A stretch of 64,000 nucleotides of DNA, taken from contig NZ_BMKA01000003.1 of NCBI RefSeq assembly GCF_014643735.1, positions 186,001 to 250,000 of the forward strand, written 5' to 3'. The DNA comes from Neptunicoccus cionae (GTDB taxonomy: Bacteria > Pseudomonadota > Alphaproteobacteria > Rhodobacterales > Rhodobacteraceae). The notes under the pieces were generated by a model. The model was given only the letters and a program-made list of their open reading frames with translations, was not told the origin of the DNA and ran no database searches. This document shows, piece after piece, positions 12,699 through 63,483 of this stretch. Position 1 is the stretch's first letter. Every line of letters starts with the position of its first letter. A program made the translations under genes and the position numbers.

Positions 12699-14519
12699 AT
12701 GCCCGACGGTCAGCCACTCGTGTCTTTTGAAAATCTGCGGGTGGAGTTTGAGACCAACTCCGGCGTTGTGGTCGGGGTTGAGGATGTCAGCTTTCACATA
12801 AATCCGGGCGAAACCGTCTGTGTGGTCGGCGAAAGTGGCTCTGGCAAATCGGTGTCGTCCCTGTCCCTGATGCGGCTGATCGAATACGGCGGCGGCAAAA
12901 TTGCGTCAGGCAAGCTGAATTTCACGGCGGCAGACGGCACGGTGAACGATTTAACCGATGCTGATGCGGATTTGATGCGCACTATTCGGGGCAACCAGAT
13001 CGGAATGATTTTTCAAGAACCGATGACCTCTTTGAACCCTGTGTTCACTGTGGGGCGACAGCTGACCGAAGGCTTGCGGGTTCACAAAAAGATGTCACGC
13101 ACTGCGGCAGAGGCCCGCGCGCTGGAGCTTTTGCAGCGGGTGCGAATCCCCGAACCGGAACGGCGGCTGACGCAATATCCCCACGAGTTATCGGGCGGGA
13201 TGCGCCAGCGGGTGATGATCGCAATGGCGCTGGCTTGCGAACCGCGCCTGTTGATCGCGGATGAACCTACGACCGCGCTTGACGTGACAATTCAGGCCGA
13301 AATTCTGTCTCTTATCAATCGGTTAAAGGAAGAAACCGGAACGGCGGTTCTGTTTATCACCCATGATATGGCGGTGGTGGCGCAGATGGCGGATCGCGTG
13401 GTGGTCATGTTCCGTGGCAATCTGGTGGAAGAAGGTCCGGTTACCGAGATCTTTAACAATCCCAAAGAGGAATACACCCGCGCGTTGCTGGCTGCGGTGC
13501 CAAAGCTGGGCGAGATGACAGGCAAGGCCAATCCCGAACCGATGGCGATCATGGGGGAAACCCGAACAGAGCCACCAAAACCGATCATTGCGGGAATCGA
13601 AACGCTTTTGGAGGTTAAAAACCTGACTACCCGCTATCCCGTTAAGGGCGGGTTGCTGCGGCGCACCGTGGCCAATGTCCACGCGGTTGAAGACGTGTCA
13701 TTTACCTTGAAACGGGGCGAAACCCTGTCTTTGGTCGGAGAAAGCGGCTGCGGCAAATCCTCGGCCGGACGATCCGTTTTGCGCCTAGAAGAACCGCTCA
13801 GCGGCGAAGTTGTTATAAATGGCGTCAACATACTAGAGATGAGCGGTTCGGACCTGCACGAAGCGCGACGCAACATGCAGATGATCTTTCAGGACCCGTT
13901 TGCCTCGTTAAATCCGACCCGCAAAGTGGTGGATCAGGTGATTGAACCGATGATAAACTACGGCATCGGGAAACGCTCTGAAATGCGGGAACGCGCGCGA
14001 CAGTTGTTCGACCGCTGTGGTCTGAACGAAACCTTTCTTGACCGTTACCCCCACGAGTTTTCCGGCGGGCAACGCCAAAGGGTGGCGATTGCCCGCGCGT
14101 TGGCGCTGAACCCGAAGCTGATTGTCGCGGATGAAGCAGTCTCGGCGCTGGATGTTTCGGTGCAGGCGCAGGTGTTAAACCTGATGATGGAGCTACAGGC
14201 AGAGCTGGAGCTGTCCTATCTGTTTATCAGTCACGATATGGCGGTGGTAGAACGGGTGTCCCATCAGGTGGCGGTGATGTATCTCGGGCGCATTGTGGAA
14301 ATCGGCCCGCGCGCGGCGATCTTTGAGAACCCACAGCATGATTACACGCGCACCCTGTTGTCCGCCGTTCCCCGTCCGGACCCCCATGATCGCCAGATCG
14401 ACAAGGAACTGAATTTCAAACCAATCCCAAGCCCGATCTTTCCGGTGGGCTACACCCCGTCTCCCTCTCGCTACCGAGAGGTTTCTCCCGGACATCGGGT
14501 GCTTGAGGGCGTGCAATAA
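12699..14519 (+). CDS. Dipeptide/oligopeptide-type ABC transporter, fused double ATPase
   Basis: A 606-residue protein carrying both ATPase modules (DppD-like plus DppF-like) of a peptide/nickel-type importer, as in GsiA. The first module has GESGSGKS (about 46-53), the signature LSGGMRQRVMIAMALA and LIADEPTTALD. The second, from about residue 285, has GESGCGKSS, FSGGQRQRVAIARALA and IVADEAVSALD. A zinc-finger-free oligopeptide-type C-terminal tail follows (PSPIFPVGYTPSPSRYREV). The ATG has AGGAG at ideal spacing. No permease or binding-protein genes are adjacent, so its partner components must be encoded elsewhere and the substrate is unknown. Confidence 0.9.
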   Translation: MPDGQPLVSFENLRVEFETNSGVVVGVEDVSFHINPGETVCVVGESGSGKSVSSLSLMRLIEYGGGKIASGKLNFTAADGTVNDLTDADADLMRTIRGNQIGMIFQEPMTSLNPVFTVGRQLTEGLRVHKKMSRTAAEARALELLQRVRIPEPERRLTQYPHELSGGMRQRVMIAMALACEPRLLIADEPTTALDVTIQAEILSLINRLKEETGTAVLFITHDMAVVAQMADRVVVMFRGNLVEEGPVTEIFNNPKEEYTRALLAAVPKLGEMTGKANPEPMAIMGETRTEPPKPIIAGIETLLEVKNLTTRYPVKGGLLRRTVANVHAVEDVSFTLKRGETLSLVGESGCGKSSAGRSVLRLEEPLSGEVVINGVNILEMSGSDLHEARRNMQMIFQDPFASLNPTRKVVDQVIEPMINYGIGKRSEMRERARQLFDRCGLNETFLDRYPHEFSGGQRQRVAIARALALNPKLIVADEAVSALDVSVQAQVLNLMMELQAELELSYLFISHDMAVVERVSHQVAVMYLGRIVEIGPRAAIFENPQHDYTRTLLSAVPRPDPHDRQIDKELNFKPIPSPIFPVGYTPSPSRYREVSPGHRVLEGVQ

Positions 14520-14877
14520 AATCGGGTTGGGCTGTGTGCCACGCCGCTCATGGCGTTGGCCGTAGTACTCTTTACGCGACACTAGAAACTCCGGCCAACG
14601 CCCCCGAGCACGACACCGCTTCGGGTACCCTCTTCTCGACGGTACAAAGTGGGAAAACAACGCCGTTTACGTGAAATGCATGGGTTGTTTCGTGAATGGA
14701 ATGGCTTGGAGATTTTCGACAAAACTTTTCAACCGCTAGTAGAACCACTTGCCTTAGGGAGTATTCTCTACGATATTACAACATATTAGCACTAAATCGG
14801 GGCACTTTACGATGTGCGATTCCTGATTGATCCCCAAAGCACGGCCGACCCGTAATTGAGATAGAAATTACAAACGC
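14520..14877. other. Intergenic region with an 11-bp inverted repeat
   Basis: A 358-base gap with no plausible coding frame. GGCGTTGGCCG at 14552-14562 is exactly complementary to CGGCCAACGCC at 14592-14602, with 29 bases between, so the transcript leaving the ABC gene could form an extended hairpin. There is no T-run directly after it. The second half is more AT-rich and should carry the promoter of the LytTR gene. Confidence 0.5.
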
Positions 14878-15756
14878 ATGACCCTTTTTCGTAAAAATCC
14901 ATTCTCTTTACCCTTTCTTAAACGGGTTTTTTTCGCAGCTCAGCGCCGCGTTTCCCATCCGGCCACGCTGACAATCATGATCGGCGCCACAATTATCTGC
15001 ACCCTTGTCGGACCATTTGACACTTATTATCAGGACACTTTTCTGTTCCGGCTCTATTTCTGGGGAGCGATTGTTTTGACGTCCACCACCTATGGCTGTC
15101 TAGCCTCTGTATGGACAAATCTGACATTCCGGCACTTGTCCTTTTGGCAGCGCACGTTAATCAATCTGCCGATTTTCACCCTGCCGTTTTCACTGGTCAG
15201 CTGGGAGTTCTCCAGTATTTACTACACTCGGCAGGCCATGCCGCACCCAATGGTGGTCGTCATTCTTGTGGGTGCCGTCGACCTGTTTGTACACGCCTGC
15301 ATTTATGTCAGCCGTGCCAGTCGCCGTCCGGTAAGTCTGTCACAACAAACGCTGCCACAAATGCCAGCCAAAGCGCCCCCCATGCACGACCCAGCGGTTG
15401 AACCACAAGAGAACGCAAAGCCGGAACCGGACGATAAGCCCGACGAGTGTGCATTTCTGCGCAGGCTCGGTCCAAACAGCGGTAGTTATCTTATCCGTCT
15501 TGCGATGAACGACCACTATATTGAAGCCCATACAGACACAGGAATCCACATGCTGTACATGCGGTTCGGGGATGCTATCGCCGAGCTAAACGCCGAAGAT
15601 GGCGCAAAGGTTCACCGATCCCACTGGGTCCGTTTTGCCGAGATTATCGATGTGGAACGCAGCGGCCCGAAGGTGGCTCTTGTGATGTCTGATGGTGTCT
15701 CTGTGCCAGTATCACGCAGCCACAAAACCTTCCTTCAGGAGAAGGGCATTATCTAG
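14878..15756 (+). CDS. Membrane-anchored LytTR-type DNA-binding regulator
   Basis: A 292-residue protein with four predicted membrane helices in residues 30-150 and a cytoplasmic proline-rich linker (160-190), ending in a LytTR DNA-binding domain (about 195-292). The domain shows the family's LIRLAMNDHYIEAHTDTG, LYMRFGDAIAEL, KVHRSHWV and the VSRSHKTFLQEKG ending. LytTR regulators usually receive a phosphoryl signal through a receiver domain; here the N-terminus is a membrane sensor instead. The start has no obvious ribosome binding site. The last 8 bases overlap the end of the convergent BrnA-like gene. Confidence 0.85.
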   Translation: MTLFRKNPFSLPFLKRVFFAAQRRVSHPATLTIMIGATIICTLVGPFDTYYQDTFLFRLYFWGAIVLTSTTYGCLASVWTNLTFRHLSFWQRTLINLPIFTLPFSLVSWEFSSIYYTRQAMPHPMVVVILVGAVDLFVHACIYVSRASRRPVSLSQQTLPQMPAKAPPMHDPAVEPQENAKPEPDDKPDECAFLRRLGPNSGSYLIRLAMNDHYIEAHTDTGIHMLYMRFGDAIAELNAEDGAKVHRSHWVRFAEIIDVERSGPKVALVMSDGVSVPVSRSHKTFLQEKGII

Positions 15757-16213
15757 ACGTGCTACCGTGGGCTTTGCGGATCAGGGCAAGACTGGATTCA
15801 ATTTCGTCAACCAATACCGCAACATCCCCTGCGCCAGTTCCGTCATCGACACGCAATTCTTTCAACTTCTGCTTCAACATATCTTCAATCAGGGAATAAT
15901 CCTTCGGCCCCACCGCATCCGCGTCCCAATGGGATTTCACCGCCCCCGATTGCAGCGCGTGCCAATAGATGCGCAGAATAGAATTGATCCGCGCCTCAAA
16001 GCCTGTGCCAAATTTGCGGAACCACTTTAGCAGGTCATCATCAAGGTTAAGCGTGACTTCCGTTTTTTGCGGCTCAATCGGGTGCAATAGCGGGATGTCA
16101 TTCCAACCTTGCGGCAGGGATCCCTTGACCCAGTGGCGCTGAAAATCGCTTTGCAACCGCTTTAGTTCATAAACAAGATTTGCATTAGCGGTGTCTTGGG
16201 TTTTTGTGGTCAC
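15749..16213 (-). CDS. BrnA-like antitoxin without a neighbouring toxin
   Basis: A 154-residue protein whose middle section (KTEVTLNLDDDLLKWFRKFG, then GFEARINSILRIYWHA, about residues 50-87) is the ribbon-helix-helix signature of BrnA antitoxins, which bind DNA and neutralise BrnT ribonucleases. It is longer than classical BrnA at both ends, with an acidic, helical C-terminus. No brnT-like frame is present on either side: upstream is the short prfC spacer and downstream the LytTR gene. The GTG start at 16213 follows AGGAG. It may be a solitary transcription factor rather than an active antitoxin. Confidence 0.72.
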   Translation of the reverse strand: MTTKTQDTANANLVYELKRLQSDFQRHWVKGSLPQGWNDIPLLHPIEPQKTEVTLNLDDDLLKWFRKFGTGFEARINSILRIYWHALQSGAVKSHWDADAVGPKDYSLIEDMLKQKLKELRVDDGTGAGDVAVLVDEIESSLALIRKAHGSTSR

Positions 16214-56643: not shown

Positions 56644-57483
56644 ATGAAGTTTGAAGGCACGCAACAGTATGTTTCCACCGACGATCTGACCGTAGCAGTG
56701 AACGCTGCCATCGCGTTGGAGCGCCCCTTGCTGGTTAAAGGCGAACCGGGAACCGGCAAGACAGAACTGGCGATTCAGGTGGCCAAATCACTGGGGCTGC
56801 CCCTGTTGGAATGGAACATCAAATCCACCACCAAAGCCCAGCAAGGCCTTTACGAATATGACGCAGTCAGCCGCCTGCGTGACAGCCAACTTGGTGAAGA
56901 GCGGGTCCACGATGTGAAAAACTACATCAAAAGGGGCAAACTTTGGGAGGCGTTTGAAGCTGGCGACCGTCTGGTGTTGCTGATCGATGAGATCGATAAA
57001 GCCGACATCGAATTTCCAAATGACCTGCTGCAAGAACTCGACAAGATGGAGTTCTACGTTTACGAAACCGGCGAAACGATCAAGGCCAAGAAACGCCCGA
57101 TTGTGATCATCACCTCAAATAACGAAAAAGAACTGCCCGACGCCTTCCTGCGCCGCTGTTTCTTCCACTACATCCGTTTTCCAGAAGCCGAAACTTTGAA
57201 ACAAATCGTAGAAGTTCACTTCCCGGGCATCAAACCGGAACTCGTTGCCGAAGCTTTGACTCAATTCTACGACATCCGCGAAACACCGGGCCTGAAGAAA
57301 AAACCGAGCACATCGGAAGTTTTGGACTGGTTGAAACTGCTGCTGGTTGAAGATCTGGACCCTGCGGATATGAAACGGGACGGCAAGGACGCCCTGCCCC
57401 GTCTGCACGGCGCGCTGTTGAAAAACGAACAGGATGTGCATCTTTTTGAACGGCTCGCCTTCATGGCGCGGGGCAATCGATGA
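56644..57483 (+). CDS. MoxR-family AAA+ ATPase
   Basis: A 279-residue AAA+ chaperone-like ATPase, usually paired with a VWA protein to activate a metalloenzyme or complex. Walker A is VKGEPGTGKTELA (about 35), Walker B is LVLLIDEIDKADIEFPNDLLQELD, sensor 1 is IITSNNEKELPDAFLRRCFFHYIRFP with the Arg finger. First gene of an operon with a GNAT enzyme, a DUF2927 lipoprotein, a small membrane protein and a VWA protein; its target is not encoded here. Confidence 0.92.
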   Translation: MKFEGTQQYVSTDDLTVAVNAAIALERPLLVKGEPGTGKTELAIQVAKSLGLPLLEWNIKSTTKAQQGLYEYDAVSRLRDSQLGEERVHDVKNYIKRGKLWEAFEAGDRLVLLIDEIDKADIEFPNDLLQELDKMEFYVYETGETIKAKKRPIVIITSNNEKELPDAFLRRCFFHYIRFPEAETLKQIVEVHFPGIKPELVAEALTQFYDIRETPGLKKKPSTSEVLDWLKLLLVEDLDPADMKRDGKDALPRLHGALLKNEQDVHLFERLAFMARGNR

Positions 57484-57920
57484 CCACAACCGTTCGCTAT
57501 GTGACACCTGCGGATGAATCCGACTGGCGCGAACTGTGGAAGGATTACCTCGCTTTTTACGAAACCAGTCGCGATGAAGACGTCTATGCCGGAACATGGA
57601 AGCGTATTCTTGATCCCGATGAAGGCATGTTTTCGATGGTTGCCGAGACGCCGGAGCACGGGGCCGTTGGAATCGTTAACTTTCTTTACCACAGCCATTT
57701 CTGGGGGCCGGAAAGCCGCATTTATCTGAACGACCTATACGTGCGTCCTGAAATTCGCGGCACAGGTGCGGGCAAAGCGATGATTGATGCCGTTGTTGCC
57801 CACGCCAAGGAGCATAACTGCCCGCAAGTCTGGTGGTTAACGGCAGAAGACAACGCGGTCGCGCGCAAGCTCTATGACGGTGTGGCAACGCTCGCTCCTT
57901 TTGTGAAGTACCAGATATGA
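57480..57920 (+). CDS. GNAT family N-acetyltransferase
   Basis: A 146-residue GNAT-fold acyltransferase. The acetyl-CoA-binding motif A is IYLNDLYVRPEIRGTGAGKAMIDAVVAHAKE (R/Q-x-x-G-x-G/A as RGTGAG), and motif B includes WWLTAEDNAVARKLYDGVA. The substrate is unknown. It overlaps the MoxR gene and the DUF2927 gene by 4 bases at either end, so it is translated as part of the operon. Confidence 0.88.
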   Translation: MTTTVRYVTPADESDWRELWKDYLAFYETSRDEDVYAGTWKRILDPDEGMFSMVAETPEHGAVGIVNFLYHSHFWGPESRIYLNDLYVRPEIRGTGAGKAMIDAVVAHAKEHNCPQVWWLTAEDNAVARKLYDGVATLAPFVKYQI

Positions 57921-59302
57921 CGGTCTGGCGTCGGGCAGCATTCGGACTGGCAGCGATGACCCTTGCCTCTTGTGCGGGACCGATGGCCGATGTGGTCAAC
58001 AAGCGGTCCGATCCGGCGGTCCAGCTGAGCGCGATGAAAACTTTTCAGTCGCCCCCACCCACAAAGGGTGTAGCGCGTTCAAATGTGGATGTATTTGAAG
58101 AATTTCTCGATCTGACGTTCGCCCTTGAAAGCGGTCAGGATCTGTCCCGGTTGTCCCGCTTTGAGGGACCGATCACGGTTGCGCTGGTGAATGTTTCCAG
58201 TCCTGTGGTCGGTCAGGATCTTGACCGGCTGATCCAGCGGTTGCGCTCCGAGGCCAATATCCCGATTTCTCGCGTCCAAACAGCGGCTGCGGCGAATATC
58301 GTAATTGAAATGGTTTCCAAACGCCAGCTGCGCCGCGCCGCGCCAACGGCGGCCTGCATCGTCGTCCCTCGCATGAGTAGTTGGGCAGATTTTCGGAAAA
58401 ACCGCTTTAATCGACGTGCTGACTGGACCTCTCTGGAGGTGCGTAGTCGGGCCGCGGTGTTCATGCCGCGCGATATTTCTCTGCAGGATGCGCGTGATTG
58501 TCTGCACGAAGAACTCGCCCAAGCGATCGGGCCGCTGAACGATCTCTACCGCCTGCCGGACTCTGTGTTTAACGACGACAATTTCCACATTGTTCTGACG
58601 CCTTACGATATGATGATCCTTCGGGCCATGTACGCGCCGGAACTGCAATCAGGCATGGCCAAACACGAAGTGGCTGCCGTGCTTCCGCGGATTCTTGGGC
58701 GCGTTAATCCAGAAGGCGTCGGGCTCGCACCGCGCCAGATTCAGGAGACACCCGGTTCTTGGATGCGCAAGATCGAACTCGCGCTGGGTCCTGATGCATC
58801 CGAAAGGACACGAATTGAAGCCGCATCGGACGCCGTGCGCATCGCGCAGCAATTGGGGATGACAGATCACCGGCTTGGCTTTAGTTATTACGCCCGCGCC
58901 CGTGTAAATGCCTCTGCCAACGGCGCAGAGGCCGCCGCCGACTATGCCCGCGCCTATGCAAGTTTCTCTACGATTTTCGGACCTTACGACATCCACACCG
59001 CACAGGCCGGATTGCAGATGGCGTCGCTTGCCATGTCGAGCGGCGAATTCCGTCAGGCGCTACAGTTTATTGAAAGCGGATTGATTGCAGCAAAAACCGC
59101 ACAGAATGGCCGACTGATGTTCAGCCTTCTGGCAATGAAGTCCGAAATATACAAACTGGCAGGCCGCACGAATGAAGCCACGGCCCTGCGCGAAGAGGCC
59201 ATCGCTTGGGGACAATACGGCATTCACCCGCCGGGCGAGATTAACAAAAGGCTTGGCATTATCGCAAACCTGCCGCCCCGCCTGCCCCAGAAAGAAAGTT
59301 AA
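57917..59302 (+). CDS. DUF2927 family lipoprotein
   Basis: A 461-residue predicted lipoprotein (MTVWRRAAFGLAAMTLASCAG, lipobox Cys19). Residues about 60-260 form the DUF2927 domain, with ISLQDARDCLHEELAQAIGPLNDLYRLPDSVFNDDNFH in outline and FDMMILRAMYAPEL-type wording. The rest is helical and TPR-like (NGAEAAADYARAYASFSTIFGPYDIHTAQAGLQMASLAMSSGEFRQALQFIESGLIAAK in outline). Function unknown. It overlaps the GNAT gene by 4 bases and is part of the MoxR-VWA operon. Confidence 0.82.
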   Translation: MTVWRRAAFGLAAMTLASCAGPMADVVNKRSDPAVQLSAMKTFQSPPPTKGVARSNVDVFEEFLDLTFALESGQDLSRLSRFEGPITVALVNVSSPVVGQDLDRLIQRLRSEANIPISRVQTAAAANIVIEMVSKRQLRRAAPTAACIVVPRMSSWADFRKNRFNRRADWTSLEVRSRAAVFMPRDISLQDARDCLHEELAQAIGPLNDLYRLPDSVFNDDNFHIVLTPYDMMILRAMYAPELQSGMAKHEVAAVLPRILGRVNPEGVGLAPRQIQETPGSWMRKIELALGPDASERTRIEAASDAVRIAQQLGMTDHRLGFSYYARARVNASANGAEAAADYARAYASFSTIFGPYDIHTAQAGLQMASLAMSSGEFRQALQFIESGLIAAKTAQNGRLMFSLLAMKSEIYKLAGRTNEATALREEAIAWGQYGIHPPGEINKRLGIIANLPPRLPQKES

Positions 59303-59476: not shown

Positions 59477-60661
59477 ATGTTTCTGCGTTTCTTCGAAGCC
59501 CTTCGCGCCGCAAAAATTCCCGTGTCCCTGCGGGAATTTCTGGCGTTTCTTGAAGCGATGAAAACCGGCCTCGTGCTTTATGATGTTGAAGGTTTCTATT
59601 TCCTTGCTCGGGCCACGATGGTGAAGGACGAACGCAATCTCGACAAATTCGATCTGGTCTTTGCAGATGTTTTTAAGGGGATGGAAAACCTGTCCGTGGA
59701 CGACGTCCTGAACGCAGTTGACGTCCCTGATGACTGGCTCACCAAGCTGGCTGAAAAACACCTCAGCCCTGAAGAAATGGCCGAAATTGAAAGCCTCGGT
59801 GGCTTTGATAAGTTAATGGAAACCCTGAAAGAGCGCCTGAAAGAACAGGAAAAGCGCCATCAGGGCGGAAACAAGTGGATTGGCACAGCGGGAACCTCTC
59901 CTTTTGGGGCCTATGGGTACAATCCCGAAGGTGTACGGATCGGCCAGAATGAAAGTCGCCACCAGAAGGCGACGAAGGTTTGGGACAAGCGGGATTTCAA
60001 GAACCTCGACGATTCCGTAGAGCTTGGCACACGCAATATTAAAGTTGCGTTAAAAAGGCTGCGAAAATGGGCCCGCGCAGGGGCTGAAGACGAATTGGAC
60101 CTGAATGGAACGATACGTGCAACAGCTGAAAACGGCTATCTCGATGTCATCACACGCCCCGAACGTCGCAATGCAGTTAAGGTATTGTTATTCCTCGATG
60201 TTGGCGGTTCGATGGACAGCTATATCAAGCTGATCGAAGAGCTTTTTTCCGCGGCAAAAACCGAATTCAAACACATGGAATATTTCTACTTTCACAACTG
60301 TTTGTATGAAGGTGTCTGGAAAGATAATGCGCGGCGCTGGACCGAGCAGACCTCTACATGGGACGTTTTGCGAACCTATGGATCTGATTACAAATGCATT
60401 TTCGTCGGTGACGCCGCGATGAGCCCTTATGAGATCATGTATAAAGGCGGCGCGAACGAACATTGGAACGAAGAACCGGGCAAGGTTTGGCTTGAACGCG
60501 CGCAGGAACAATGGCCCGGTTCTGTCTGGATCAATCCCGTGAAAGAGCAATACTGGCAGTACACCCATTCTACTATGCTCCTTAAGGAAATCTTCAATGA
60601 TCGGATGTATCCAATGACATTGAAGGGAATCGAAGGAGCTATGAAGGAGCTCGGGCGTTAG
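59477..60661 (+). CDS. VWA domain protein (CoxE-like), MoxR partner
   Basis: A 394-residue protein; the N-terminal third is helical (FFEALRAAKIPVSLREFLAFLEAMKTGL, family-typical for CoxE-like), the middle charged (LKERLKEQEKRHQGGNKWIGTAGTSPFG), and the C-terminal half a VWA domain. The MIDAS reads LFLDVGGSMDSY, that is D-x-G-x-S with Gly at the usual first Ser, followed by FVGDAAMSPYE as the third metal ligand. MoxR/VWA pairs remodel or insert metals into partner proteins; the client here is unknown. Last gene of the operon. Confidence 0.88.
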   Translation: MFLRFFEALRAAKIPVSLREFLAFLEAMKTGLVLYDVEGFYFLARATMVKDERNLDKFDLVFADVFKGMENLSVDDVLNAVDVPDDWLTKLAEKHLSPEEMAEIESLGGFDKLMETLKERLKEQEKRHQGGNKWIGTAGTSPFGAYGYNPEGVRIGQNESRHQKATKVWDKRDFKNLDDSVELGTRNIKVALKRLRKWARAGAEDELDLNGTIRATAENGYLDVITRPERRNAVKVLLFLDVGGSMDSYIKLIEELFSAAKTEFKHMEYFYFHNCLYEGVWKDNARRWTEQTSTWDVLRTYGSDYKCIFVGDAAMSPYEIMYKGGANEHWNEEPGKVWLERAQEQWPGSVWINPVKEQYWQYTHSTMLLKEIFNDRMYPMTLKGIEGAMKELGR

Positions 60662-61413: not shown

Positions 61414-61763
61414 TCTGCGAATCCTAATTTGGCGATATTCGACGCGCGCGGACCCCAAACCTGTCCTTCAGAAGCGACCAATGCTCCACCCTAAATAGTA
61501 GCCATCTGTGAAGAGATCGTTAAAGTCGTGATCTTTTGCGACCCGTTTGTGAATTCGACCGAAAACTAGTGAGCCTTGTCACTCTTTCGTAGTTAAATTC
61601 TTGTACCAGAAACTGCTGAAGCCTACCCTAAGGTCAAGGTCACAGATTGGAAATTTCAACCAGAGATTATGACCTGACGGGGCTGGAACCCCGATATTTT
61701 AATCGTTTTCCGCCGGCTGAACCGGTTAGAAGACAAAAAATGGTCTAGAGGGAGAATAGTAAA
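61414..61763 (+). promoter_or_regulatory. Leader region of the RTX/integrin-like gene
   Basis: A 350-base gap with no plausible gene. Toward its 3' end CGGGG (61678-61682) and CCCCG (61689-61693) form a small hairpin followed by an AT-rich stretch, and a strong ribosome binding site (GAGGGAG) lies ahead of the ATG. The length of the leader suggests it contains the promoter and possibly regulation, but I cannot place -35/-10 boxes with confidence. Confidence 0.4.
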
Positions 61764-63311
61764 ATGGCAGATTTTATTGGTACAGAGGAAGACGACGGCT
61801 TGGTCGGCGGGTTGTTTTCCGACATTATCCATGGTTTAGAAGGCAATGACCTGCTTGCCGGTCTGAATGGCGACGATACGCTGGATGCTGGTTCCGGCGA
61901 TGACGTTCTGATCGGGGGGATCGGGGACGACATCATGTTCGGCGGTGACGGAAATGATAGAATTGTTATGACAGCTGGTGACGATCAGGTTTTTGGCGGC
62001 AGCGGTGATGACAAATACTTCGTTAACGGATTTGCCGGTGATTGGTCGATTATCACGGACACTTCTGGCATCGACACGCTGAATTTTGCGGGCGGTATTA
62101 CAGGTGCGGACATCGACCTGTCGCCCGGTGCGCTATCTTATGTGGATGATCGCGTGATCGAAATTTCTGGCCTGAAAGACTCAGATCGGCCACTGGAACT
62201 GGTGCTTTTACAAGACCTCTCCGGGTCCTTCTCTAATGACCTATTAACAGTGAACGGGCTGGTAGACGATCTGATCACTTCGGTCAGCGGCCTGGCGGAT
62301 GACGTGCGCTTGGGATTGACGTCCTTTATCGACAAACCGATTTCACCTTTTGGATCGTCGACCGACCATGAATATAAGACGGAACTCGGCCTGACTGCCG
62401 ACACCAATGCGTGGAAAACTGCGGTGACCGGTCTGTCCACAGGGGACGGTAGTGACCTCCCTGAGTCCCAAATGACGGGCTTGCTTCAGGTTGCTCTGCG
62501 CACCTCGGAAGTCGGTTGGAGCTCCTCTGCACTCAAAGTTGTGGTGCTGACCACTGATGCTGTACCCCATTTTGCGGGCGACAATCCCAATACGCCTAAT
62601 AACGGCGATGCCGTGCTTGACGGTCCGAGCGGCGATGGCACAAGCGAGGACTACCCGACAATCGAGATGGTGAAAGCTGCTCTCTTGGACGCTGGTATTA
62701 TTCCGGTTTTTGCTGTCACAACCGATGTCACCTCTGATTATCAGGCTTTGGTCGATGCCTTCGGGTTTGGCACAGTTGTGCCGCTGAGTTCGGACAGTTC
62801 GGACATCATCGCAGCATTTGAGGACGGAATCAGTGGTGCCGCTGATTCTTTGATCGAAAACGCGGTTGGGACTGCCTATAATGACGACATAATCGGCAAT
62901 AGCGCGGACAACATGATCAAAGGCAAAGCCGGTAATGACGACATTCGCGGCGTTGGCGGTGATGACTATCTGAAAGGGAACAGAGGTAAGGACAAACTGG
63001 ATGGCGGCAAAGGTGACGACATGCTTGAAGGTGGCGCTGACAAGGACAAGCTGAACGGCGGTGATGGTGCCGATACCTTTGTCTTTGACATCTCACATCC
63101 GGACCATTCCCGCGACGTGGTCAAAGACTATGAAGACGGTGTCGACAAGATCATGGTGTTGGACGACACTCTTCTGTCTTTCGCAGACATCGACGTCACG
63201 CAAGCTGGCGGCAAAACAATCCTGTCCCACGACGGTGATGCCTTCGCCCTGCTGAAATCCACAAATTCTGCAAATATCGATGCCACTGACTTCATCTTTG
63301 ACATCGCCTGA
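61764..63311 (+). CDS. Secreted RTX protein with an integrin beta-I-like (VWA/MIDAS) domain
   Basis: A 515-residue acidic protein with no N-terminal signal peptide. Residues about 24-85 and 369-442 are calcium-binding nonapeptide (RTX) repeats such as GGSGDDKYF and GGDGADTFVF; the C-terminal 70 residues end in a DFIFDIA-type hydrophobic tail, as in type I secretion substrates. Between them, about 145-365 is a VWA-like domain whose wording matches animal integrin beta subunits: DLSGSFSNDL (MIDAS Asp151, Ser153, Ser155; ADMIDAS Asp159), SFIDKPISPF (Asp190), SDLPES (Asp231, Glu234), GWSS, TTDAVPHFAGD (Asp265), DYPTIEMV and IPVFAVTTDV. Likely a calcium-loaded, secreted adhesin; type I exporter genes are not in the window. 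Confidence 0.88.
   Translation: MADFIGTEEDDGLVGGLFSDIIHGLEGNDLLAGLNGDDTLDAGSGDDVLIGGIGDDIMFGGDGNDRIVMTAGDDQVFGGSGDDKYFVNGFAGDWSIITDTSGIDTLNFAGGITGADIDLSPGALSYVDDRVIEISGLKDSDRPLELVLLQDLSGSFSNDLLTVNGLVDDLITSVSGLADDVRLGLTSFIDKPISPFGSSTDHEYKTELGLTADTNAWKTAVTGLSTGDGSDLPESQMTGLLQVALRTSEVGWSSSALKVVVLTTDAVPHFAGDNPNTPNNGDAVLDGPSGDGTSEDYPTIEMVKAALLDAGIIPVFAVTTDVTSDYQALVDAFGFGTVVPLSSDSSDIIAAFEDGISGAADSLIENAVGTAYNDDIIGNSADNMIKGKAGNDDIRGVGGDDYLKGNRGKDKLDGGKGDDMLEGGADKDKLNGGDGADTFVFDISHPDHSRDVVKDYEDGVDKIMVLDDTLLSFADIDVTQAGGKTILSHDGDAFALLKSTNSANIDATDFIFDIA
61833..62018 (+). repeat. N-terminal RTX nonapeptide repeat block
   Basis: Six or so GGxGxDxxx-like units (GLEGNDLLA, GLNGDDTLD, AGSGDDVLI, GGIGDDIMF, GGDGNDRIV, then GGSGDDKYF after a gap) encode residues about 24-85 of the RTX protein. 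Such repeats bind Ca2+ outside the cell and fold a parallel beta-roll. Confidence 0.85.
62868..63089 (+). repeat. C-terminal RTX nonapeptide repeat block
   Basis: Residues about 369-442 of the RTX protein hold a second set of degenerate Ca2+-binding repeats (NDDIIGNSA, NMIKGKAGNDDIRG, GGDDYLKGN, GGKGDDMLEGG, GGDGADTFVF), followed by the putative type I secretion tail. Several units carry Lys instead of the usual aliphatic residues. Confidence 0.8.
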
Positions 63312-63483
63312 TCGCTAACACAATCGGGTGCGTATTTACGGCCCATTACACTGTCCCTGCCTGCAGTTGCGGGTGGGGGCAGCGTCCATTTTATGTCTAG
63401 CTATAGAGCGCCTGAATTTTACCAATTGAAATCCTTTCTCCTTGGGGCTGGTCTTCGTCAACTTAACTGCCATATCTTAACAT

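Follow-up and report, generated by a model that had tools for sequence, protein, structure and literature searches.

The locus described here raises the question of why a small bacterial RTX protein should carry, between its repeats, a domain that reads like the β-I domain of animal integrin β chains, and whether this likeness reflects homology or the presence of an ordinary VWA domain. The protein of interest, 515 amino acids in length, is encoded by an open reading frame at 61764-63311 (+ strand) of the window, by which we mean the whole stretch of 64,000 nucleotides of Neptunicoccus cionae DNA that was analyzed, and its layout is RTX, integrin-β-I-like domain and RTX again. The FIDKPISPF-type motifs which the original prediction had quoted for 62196-62858 (residues 145-365) are present in this frame, and Pfam places RTX blocks on both sides of the β-I domain, as had been proposed.

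A Shine-Dalgarno-like GAGGGAGA (61748..61755), read directly, lies 8 nt upstream of the ATG, and a consensus scan points to a terminator-like stem of 14 pairs 3' of the gene (63351..63382); these features and those of the product all lie on the + strand. The N-terminal block of RTX nonapeptides (61815..62015, approximately residues 18-84), in which the best PF00353 stretch covers residues 33-67, is followed by a linker of 59 amino acids (62013..62189, residues 84-142) and by the integrin β-I-like domain itself (62196..62858, residues 145-365), which is recognized by PF00362 and by the integrin β chains of the PDB. After an IENAVG linker comes the C-terminal RTX block (62859..63083), where PF08548 (Peptidase_M10_C) covers residues 350-490 and where the models for serralysin and SMc04171 cover residues 351-410 and 368-458, respectively, both under their own cut-offs. 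Outside the β-I domain the chain consists of RTX repeats, matched by PF00353 in five stretches (74.9 bits, cut-off 23), and a polar C-terminus (63141..63308) that ends in DFIFDIA, an ending of the type that we take to be a type I secretion signal. A DFxF motif was found within the last 12 residues of 9 of 21 relatives, and NFIF in one further relative. At E ≤ 10, the Pfam scan of the whole protein returned only PF00362, PF00353, PF24909, PF08548 and a weak VWA_4 match, with no PSI, hybrid, EGF or β-tail domain, no retention module and no FG-GAP match.

The identity of the central domain was assessed by profile and sequence comparison. PF00362 (Integrin_beta) aligned with residues 141-350 over positions 3-235 of its 248, with 117.7 bits and an E-value of 9.4e-34 (cut-off 24.8), and the runners-up for the whole protein were PF24909 (29.8 bits, cut-off 27) and VWA_4 (13.0 bits). 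The canonical VWA model, PF00092, was absent at E ≤ 10 for the whole protein and at E ≤ 1 for the domain alone, for which VWA_2 reached 14.3 bits against a cut-off of 27; generic VWA models thus scored no better than PF00362. When residues 145-365 were compared with PDB sequences by phmmer, human integrin β7 was matched at E 1.7e-20, and at least 60 matches were obtained, those listed being integrin β chains (β7, β2, β6, β3, β1 and β8) together with 2iue, an integrin-β-2-like protein. A profile built from our alignment of 22 β-I domains likewise gave at least 60 PDB matches, and those listed were again integrin β chains and 2iue. Identity of the domain to human β7 and β1 is 32-33%. As a control we used 30 canonical VWA domains, namely the best PF00092 scorers with loci given, from the same bacterial family, in which 57 of 61 genomes had PF00092 matches; all 30 have the DxSxS motif, and the best of them reached 8.2 bits against the β-I profile. 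Judged by its sequence, then, the central domain is of the integrin β-I type and homologous to the VWA domain of integrin β chains rather than an ordinary VWA domain, as the original prediction had held.

Besides the protein of the window, the 22 rows of the alignment take in four orthologues and 17 other relatives; the four orthologues and two plasmid rows came from searches with the window protein confirmed by tblastn, and the other 15 were gathered with PF00362. L055 duplicates the chain of L027 and was left out, as were L059 and the incomplete PF00362 matches in G126, G107, G087 and G170; L110 and L112 came to light afterwards and stand outside the alignment. PF00362 matches all 22 rows, a count that is partly circular given how 15 of them were gathered.

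Within this alignment the metal sites can be followed residue by residue, using β3 numbering, which for several positions is that of the original prediction. The MIDAS residues of β3, D119, S121, S123, E220 and D251, correspond to D151, S153, S155, E234 and D265, the very residues named beforehand. In the D151-x-S153-x-S155 motif (62214..62228), the Asp is present in 22 of 22 rows, the first Ser in 21 (Thr once) and the second in all 22; D265 (62556..62558) and the E220 position are likewise invariant. The MIDAS therefore reads as complete, with Glu rather than Thr as its fourth residue. The regulatory sites are less fully kept. Of the SyMBS side-chain ligands D158, N215, D217 and E220, three are retained in our protein: D190 (62331..62333) stands at D158 and is Asp in every row, and the loop G229-S-D231-L-P233-E234 (62448..62465), which corresponds to β3 N215..E220, retains D217 in 21 of 22 rows (Asn once), P219 in 17 and E220 in 22. 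The SyMBS is thus kept in part, D190 and D231 being present as the original prediction had stated, whereas the N215 position is Gly in 22 of 22 rows. At the ADMIDAS (62235..62240), D159 is retained as predicted (D127; Asp in 21 rows, Glu once), but its partner D126, which the original prediction had omitted, is N158 here, as it is Asn in four of 22 rows including this one and Asp in the other 18. With N215 replaced by Gly in every row and D126 by Asn, both the SyMBS and the ADMIDAS may be weak.

Two loops which presumably dock the α propeller in animal β-I domains are altered as well. The place of the specificity-determining loop (62352..62375) holds 8 amino acids and no cysteines, with a gap of 17 residues relative to human β7, and is 8-10 amino acids long in all 22 rows. 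The H269..D282 loop (62568..62609), which we equate with the loop around β3 R261 and for which we assume a role in α docking, has 14 amino acids in our protein and 18 in human β7 and β1. Docking of an α propeller in the animal manner is therefore unlikely on present reading of the sequence. Because the α-docking parts are missing or short and Pfam finds no hybrid, PSI or EGF domain, the 515-amino-acid protein is best regarded as a carrier of a β-I domain and not as an integrin β chain.

Orthologues with 79-90% identity over the domain occur in Neptunicoccus sediminis, Amylibacter cionae and two Rhodobacteraceae MAGs, in agreement with membership of the Rhodobacterales, and the full-length protein is present in 4 of 33 genomes in the genus group of the centre genome, G003. 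For the β-I domain, dN/dS between our protein and L002, L003 and L004 was 0.043-0.057, values which are rough since dS is large throughout, and dS was saturated against L001. The G+C content of the gene resembles that of its surroundings. The order AAA, GNAT, DUF2927, VWA_CoxE, TPR, β-I gene and M48 peptidase is kept in three of the four orthologue genomes, the exception being G004. In the window the AAA ATPase (AAA_5, MoxR-like by eye) lies at 56644-57483, the DUF2927 protein (161.9 bits) at 57917-59299 and the VWA_CoxE protein at 59477-60661, and the AAA ATPase and the VWA_CoxE protein are probably a chaperone pair. In the neighbourhood in G004 (L062:4628-7924 and 13051-16086), a pair of RTX proteins, each weakly matched by M10/M12-like peptidase models, lies upstream of the β-I gene, and a protein that combines a permease domain (ArsP_1) with FG-GAP_3 repeats and a UnbV domain is encoded near it. 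The named neighbours across 56.0-64.0 kb of the window include no type I transporter gene; a PrtD ABC transporter above the curated cut-off was found in nine of nine related genomes. That the domain persists among orthologues of 79-90% identity, with low dN/dS, and that VWA controls reach at most 8.2 bits indicate that the observation is more than chance.

Beyond the close group, PF00362 exceeds its cut-off in 17 of 345 sampled genomes of the family, 3 of 289 of the class and 1 of 398 of the phylum, each count including the centre genome. The proposal of a combination of RTX repeats with an integrin β domain was borne out to the extent that 16 of the 17 relatives scanned with Pfam (the four close orthologues left out) have RTX repeats, but with 17 genomes in the family alone the form is not unique to the genome of the window. 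The sole RTX exception is a frame on a Vibrio gigantis plasmid (L028:2-2026, +), which combines a Subtilase domain (PF00082) with a β-I/VWA domain; this frame begins at the first bases of the record and is missing from the gene table of the plasmid. Some relatives additionally carry cadherin-like or Ig domains, and a divergent RTX group (L027:4804-8820, L054:6921-10214 and L056:5355-8690) has a loop of 23 amino acids in place of the R261 loop and more insertions in the β-I domain. No carrier of the domain was found in 50,697 phage records or in the viral contigs scanned. The linker of residues 84-142 has matches of at least 47% identity only in proteins that also have a β-I domain. Insertion of the domain into a pre-existing RTX roll was considered and finds no support in the sequences: the flanks, searched apart, gave no convincing adjacent pair in a protein without β-I, and outside the close group the search returned weak upstream matches (E 0.005 to 0.88) in L051, L057, L043 and L062.

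The most surprising by-product of this survey is a set of four relatives in which an FG-GAP propeller of the integrin α type, a β-I domain and RTX repeats share one chain. The two full-length examples have 2099 amino acids (L043:4698-10994, + strand, genome G251; FG-GAP in seven Pfam stretches, 135 bits; PF00362 125 bits; RTX) and 1769 amino acids (L047:7454-12760, - strand, G125; six FG-GAP stretches, 158 bits; PF00362 115 bits; RTX), whereas the others are cut by contig ends, one C-terminally (L110:2-4261, - strand, G1026; seven FG-GAP stretches, 148 bits; PF00362 131 bits) and one N-terminally (L112:3463-8166, - strand, G1029; four FG-GAP stretches, 104 bits; PF00362 113 bits). Seven DxNxDG blades, 60-73 amino acids apart, are seen in both L043 and L047, seven also in L110, and five DxNx[DN]G sites are visible in L112. 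These carriers account for the β-I matches of two of 15 genomes in one genus and two of four in the other. As in human β7 and β1, their H..D loop is 18 amino acids long; that of L043 aligns without gaps with these two human chains, Ala standing where they have Lys. A further relative, L046, falls beside L043 and L047 in the tree (94/94, short of the starred level) and has the 18-amino-acid loop with no FG-GAP match. For this reason, and because the carriers of the propeller seem to form a single branch, the co-occurrence of loop and propeller does not count as independent evidence. It is conceivable, though we would put it forward only as a tentative idea and think it less likely to be right than wrong by a good measure, that the Rhodobacterales clade of G251, G1026, G125 and G1029 possesses an equivalent of the integrin head made of one chain, in which propeller and β-I domain fold together with the ligand at their interface. 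The protein of the window would then be a stripped-down member that lost its propeller or never had one, and the animal α/β pairing would have a bacterial parallel or forerunner.

What the 515-amino-acid protein does can be proposed from these features. We consider it reasonably probable that it is a small, type-I-secreted, Ca2+-folded, adhesin-like protein of the cell surface or matrix that grips an acidic ligand through its MIDAS. In such a mechanism the central domain, as a homologue of the integrin β VWA (β-I) domain, would hold Mg2+ or Mn2+ at the MIDAS, with regulatory Ca2+ alongside, and would bind a ligand carboxylate (Asp or Glu), as the conservation of these residues suggests. The chain would leave the cell unfolded through a type I system of the PrtD kind and would fold outside as Ca2+ fills the RTX β-rolls, which could serve as a split scaffold presenting the β-I domain outward. 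The protein might then mediate attachment, whether to other cells, to particles, to the surface of a host or to the cell's own matrix. Counted in favor of this reading are the gene order kept in three of four genomes, the low dN/dS, PrtD in nine of nine genomes and RTX repeats in 16 of 17 relatives, while the DFxF C-terminus, present in only 9 of 21 relatives, lowers confidence in a secreted adhesin. Since Pfam finds no retention module, the protein may be released rather than held by the cell, and with its α-docking loops absent or shortened it is more likely to act by itself than as part of an integrin heterodimer.

Several other explanations need to be set against this one, and two of them concern what the domain is and where it came from. 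If the domain were simply a VWA domain of the common bacterial kind set in an RTX protein, its resemblance to integrin β-I would reflect convergence on the shared Rossmann/MIDAS fold. The weak VWA_4 and VWA_2 matches agree with that, as does the fact that vWFA domains are known in RTX adhesins (PMC12077191), and β-I grades into VWA among the outermost members of the family: PF00092 at E ≤ 1 is reached by 17 of the 22 rows, the window row not among them, and intermediates exist in L059, a less typical VWA domain that reaches 26.1 bits when searched with the domain of the window protein, and in the outer rows L028 (PF00362 50.1 bits, PF00092 35.7) and L027 (PF00362 40.0 bits, VWA_4 26.7). Against it, PF00362 leads VWA_4 by approximately 100 bits in our protein, the 30 canonical loci stay at or below 8.2 bits on the β-I profile, the MIDAS Glu and the SyMBS Asps are fixed across the alignment (D217 in 21 of 22 rows), and the PDB matches listed are only integrin β chains and 2iue; the HMM scores and the VWA control led us to reject this identity, which we hold to be scarcely credible. 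Had the gene been taken up recently from the integrin genes of an animal host, the strong likeness to animal sequences would be accounted for, and one orthologue is in Amylibacter cionae, a species presumably named for the sea squirt. That explanation is very improbable nonetheless: identity to human β7 and β1 is just 32-33%, the animal flanking domains are absent according to Pfam, the G+C content matches the surroundings, and the most distant bacterial rows, at 33% identity, are as remote from the window domain as the human ones. The backbone of the tree, in which the human rows, the only two animal sequences, sit on a long branch, is not resolved, and this leaves room for an old transfer in either direction.

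The remaining two explanations accept the β-I domain and differ in its use. The protein could pair with an FG-GAP propeller protein from a gene elsewhere to form a bacterial heterodimer of the integrin kind, and FG-GAP matches above the cut-off are indeed present in five of the seven genomes that have the close form and, over all genomes carrying β-I, in 14 of 22 (two of them fusions). The same is true of 45 of 100 sampled genomes of the family, so that the enrichment is slight, with kinship uncorrected; the specificity loop is gone and the R261-type loop is four amino acids shorter, and we regard a heterodimer as highly unlikely. More plausible, if still a minority view, is a structural or self-assembling protein with no outside ligand, in which the MIDAS would bind the Asp-rich RTX repeats of adjacent chains, or polysaccharide, and so build a Ca2+-dependent extracellular matrix. 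The RTX repeats are rich in carboxylate, Pfam shows no anchor in our protein, and in each of G001-G004 there are 60-69 stretches that match it, which among those listed are mostly RTX parts; on the other side, the comparable domain of Aeromonas AhLap is read as a putative ligand-binding domain (PMC12077191). We accordingly continue to favor the secreted, adhesin-like protein with a MIDAS-bound acidic ligand.

How integrins arose has long been debated, and a compact bacterial β-I domain, seemingly free of an α chain, would let MIDAS, ADMIDAS and SyMBS be measured alone. Structures of the relatives that have propeller and β-I together could directly test whether an integrin head existed before animals. 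Should a single-chain head prove true, the pairing of α and β chains in animal integrins would have a single-chain parallel or forerunner in bacteria.

Compared with the integrin β chains of humans (β7, β2, β1 and β3), our protein shares profile positions 3-235 of 248, the full MIDAS, and the residues D158, D217, E220 and D127, but it has no specificity loop, a shorter R261-type loop, Gly for N215 and Asn for D126, and its β-I domain lies outside any hybrid domain, with no PSI, EGF or β-tail match. Bacterial proteins of this class were not wholly new, as the original prediction had acknowledged: cyanobacterial integrin-β-like proteins, as in Trichodesmium erythraeum, had already been published (PMC3192720; PMC2651865). 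By its published description, the Trichodesmium protein is likewise bacterial with an integrin β-A domain, its match is said to exceed 450 residues, and an RTX frame goes unmentioned in the portions of those sources consulted (PMC3192720; PMC2651865). Among the matches listed from the open-access literature, no bacterial protein combining RTX repeats with integrin β-I was found, nor one with propeller and β-I within a single bacterial chain.

Among RTX adhesins, the closest parallel is Aeromonas AhLap, whose vWFA domain, in the same arrangement, is described as protruding from the C-terminal RTX roll (PMC12077191). In both proteins the RTX repeats are split around an A-domain and followed by a C-terminal secretion signal, presumed in ours, but AhLap has 5047 residues, retention and extender domains and a vWFA domain, whereas our protein has 515 amino acids and a domain of the β-I type. 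A MIDAS adhesin has also been described as important in prey invasion by Bdellovibrio (PMC11003981). The SibA protein of Dictyostelium joins an integrin-β-like VWA domain to bacterial repeats of the RTX-family or adhesin-like kind (PMC2651865; PMC9453864), and SibA-E (PF24909, the family that scores 29.8 bits in our protein) share this union with our protein; they differ in having a transmembrane segment and talin-binding NPXY motifs, and our protein scores far higher on PF00362. Finally, seven-bladed FG-GAP propellers of the integrin type have already been published from bacteria (PMC3192720), and the seven DxNxDG blades of L043, L047 and L110 resemble them, but in these relatives, as far as the published descriptions go, the propeller differs in sharing its chain with an integrin β-I domain.
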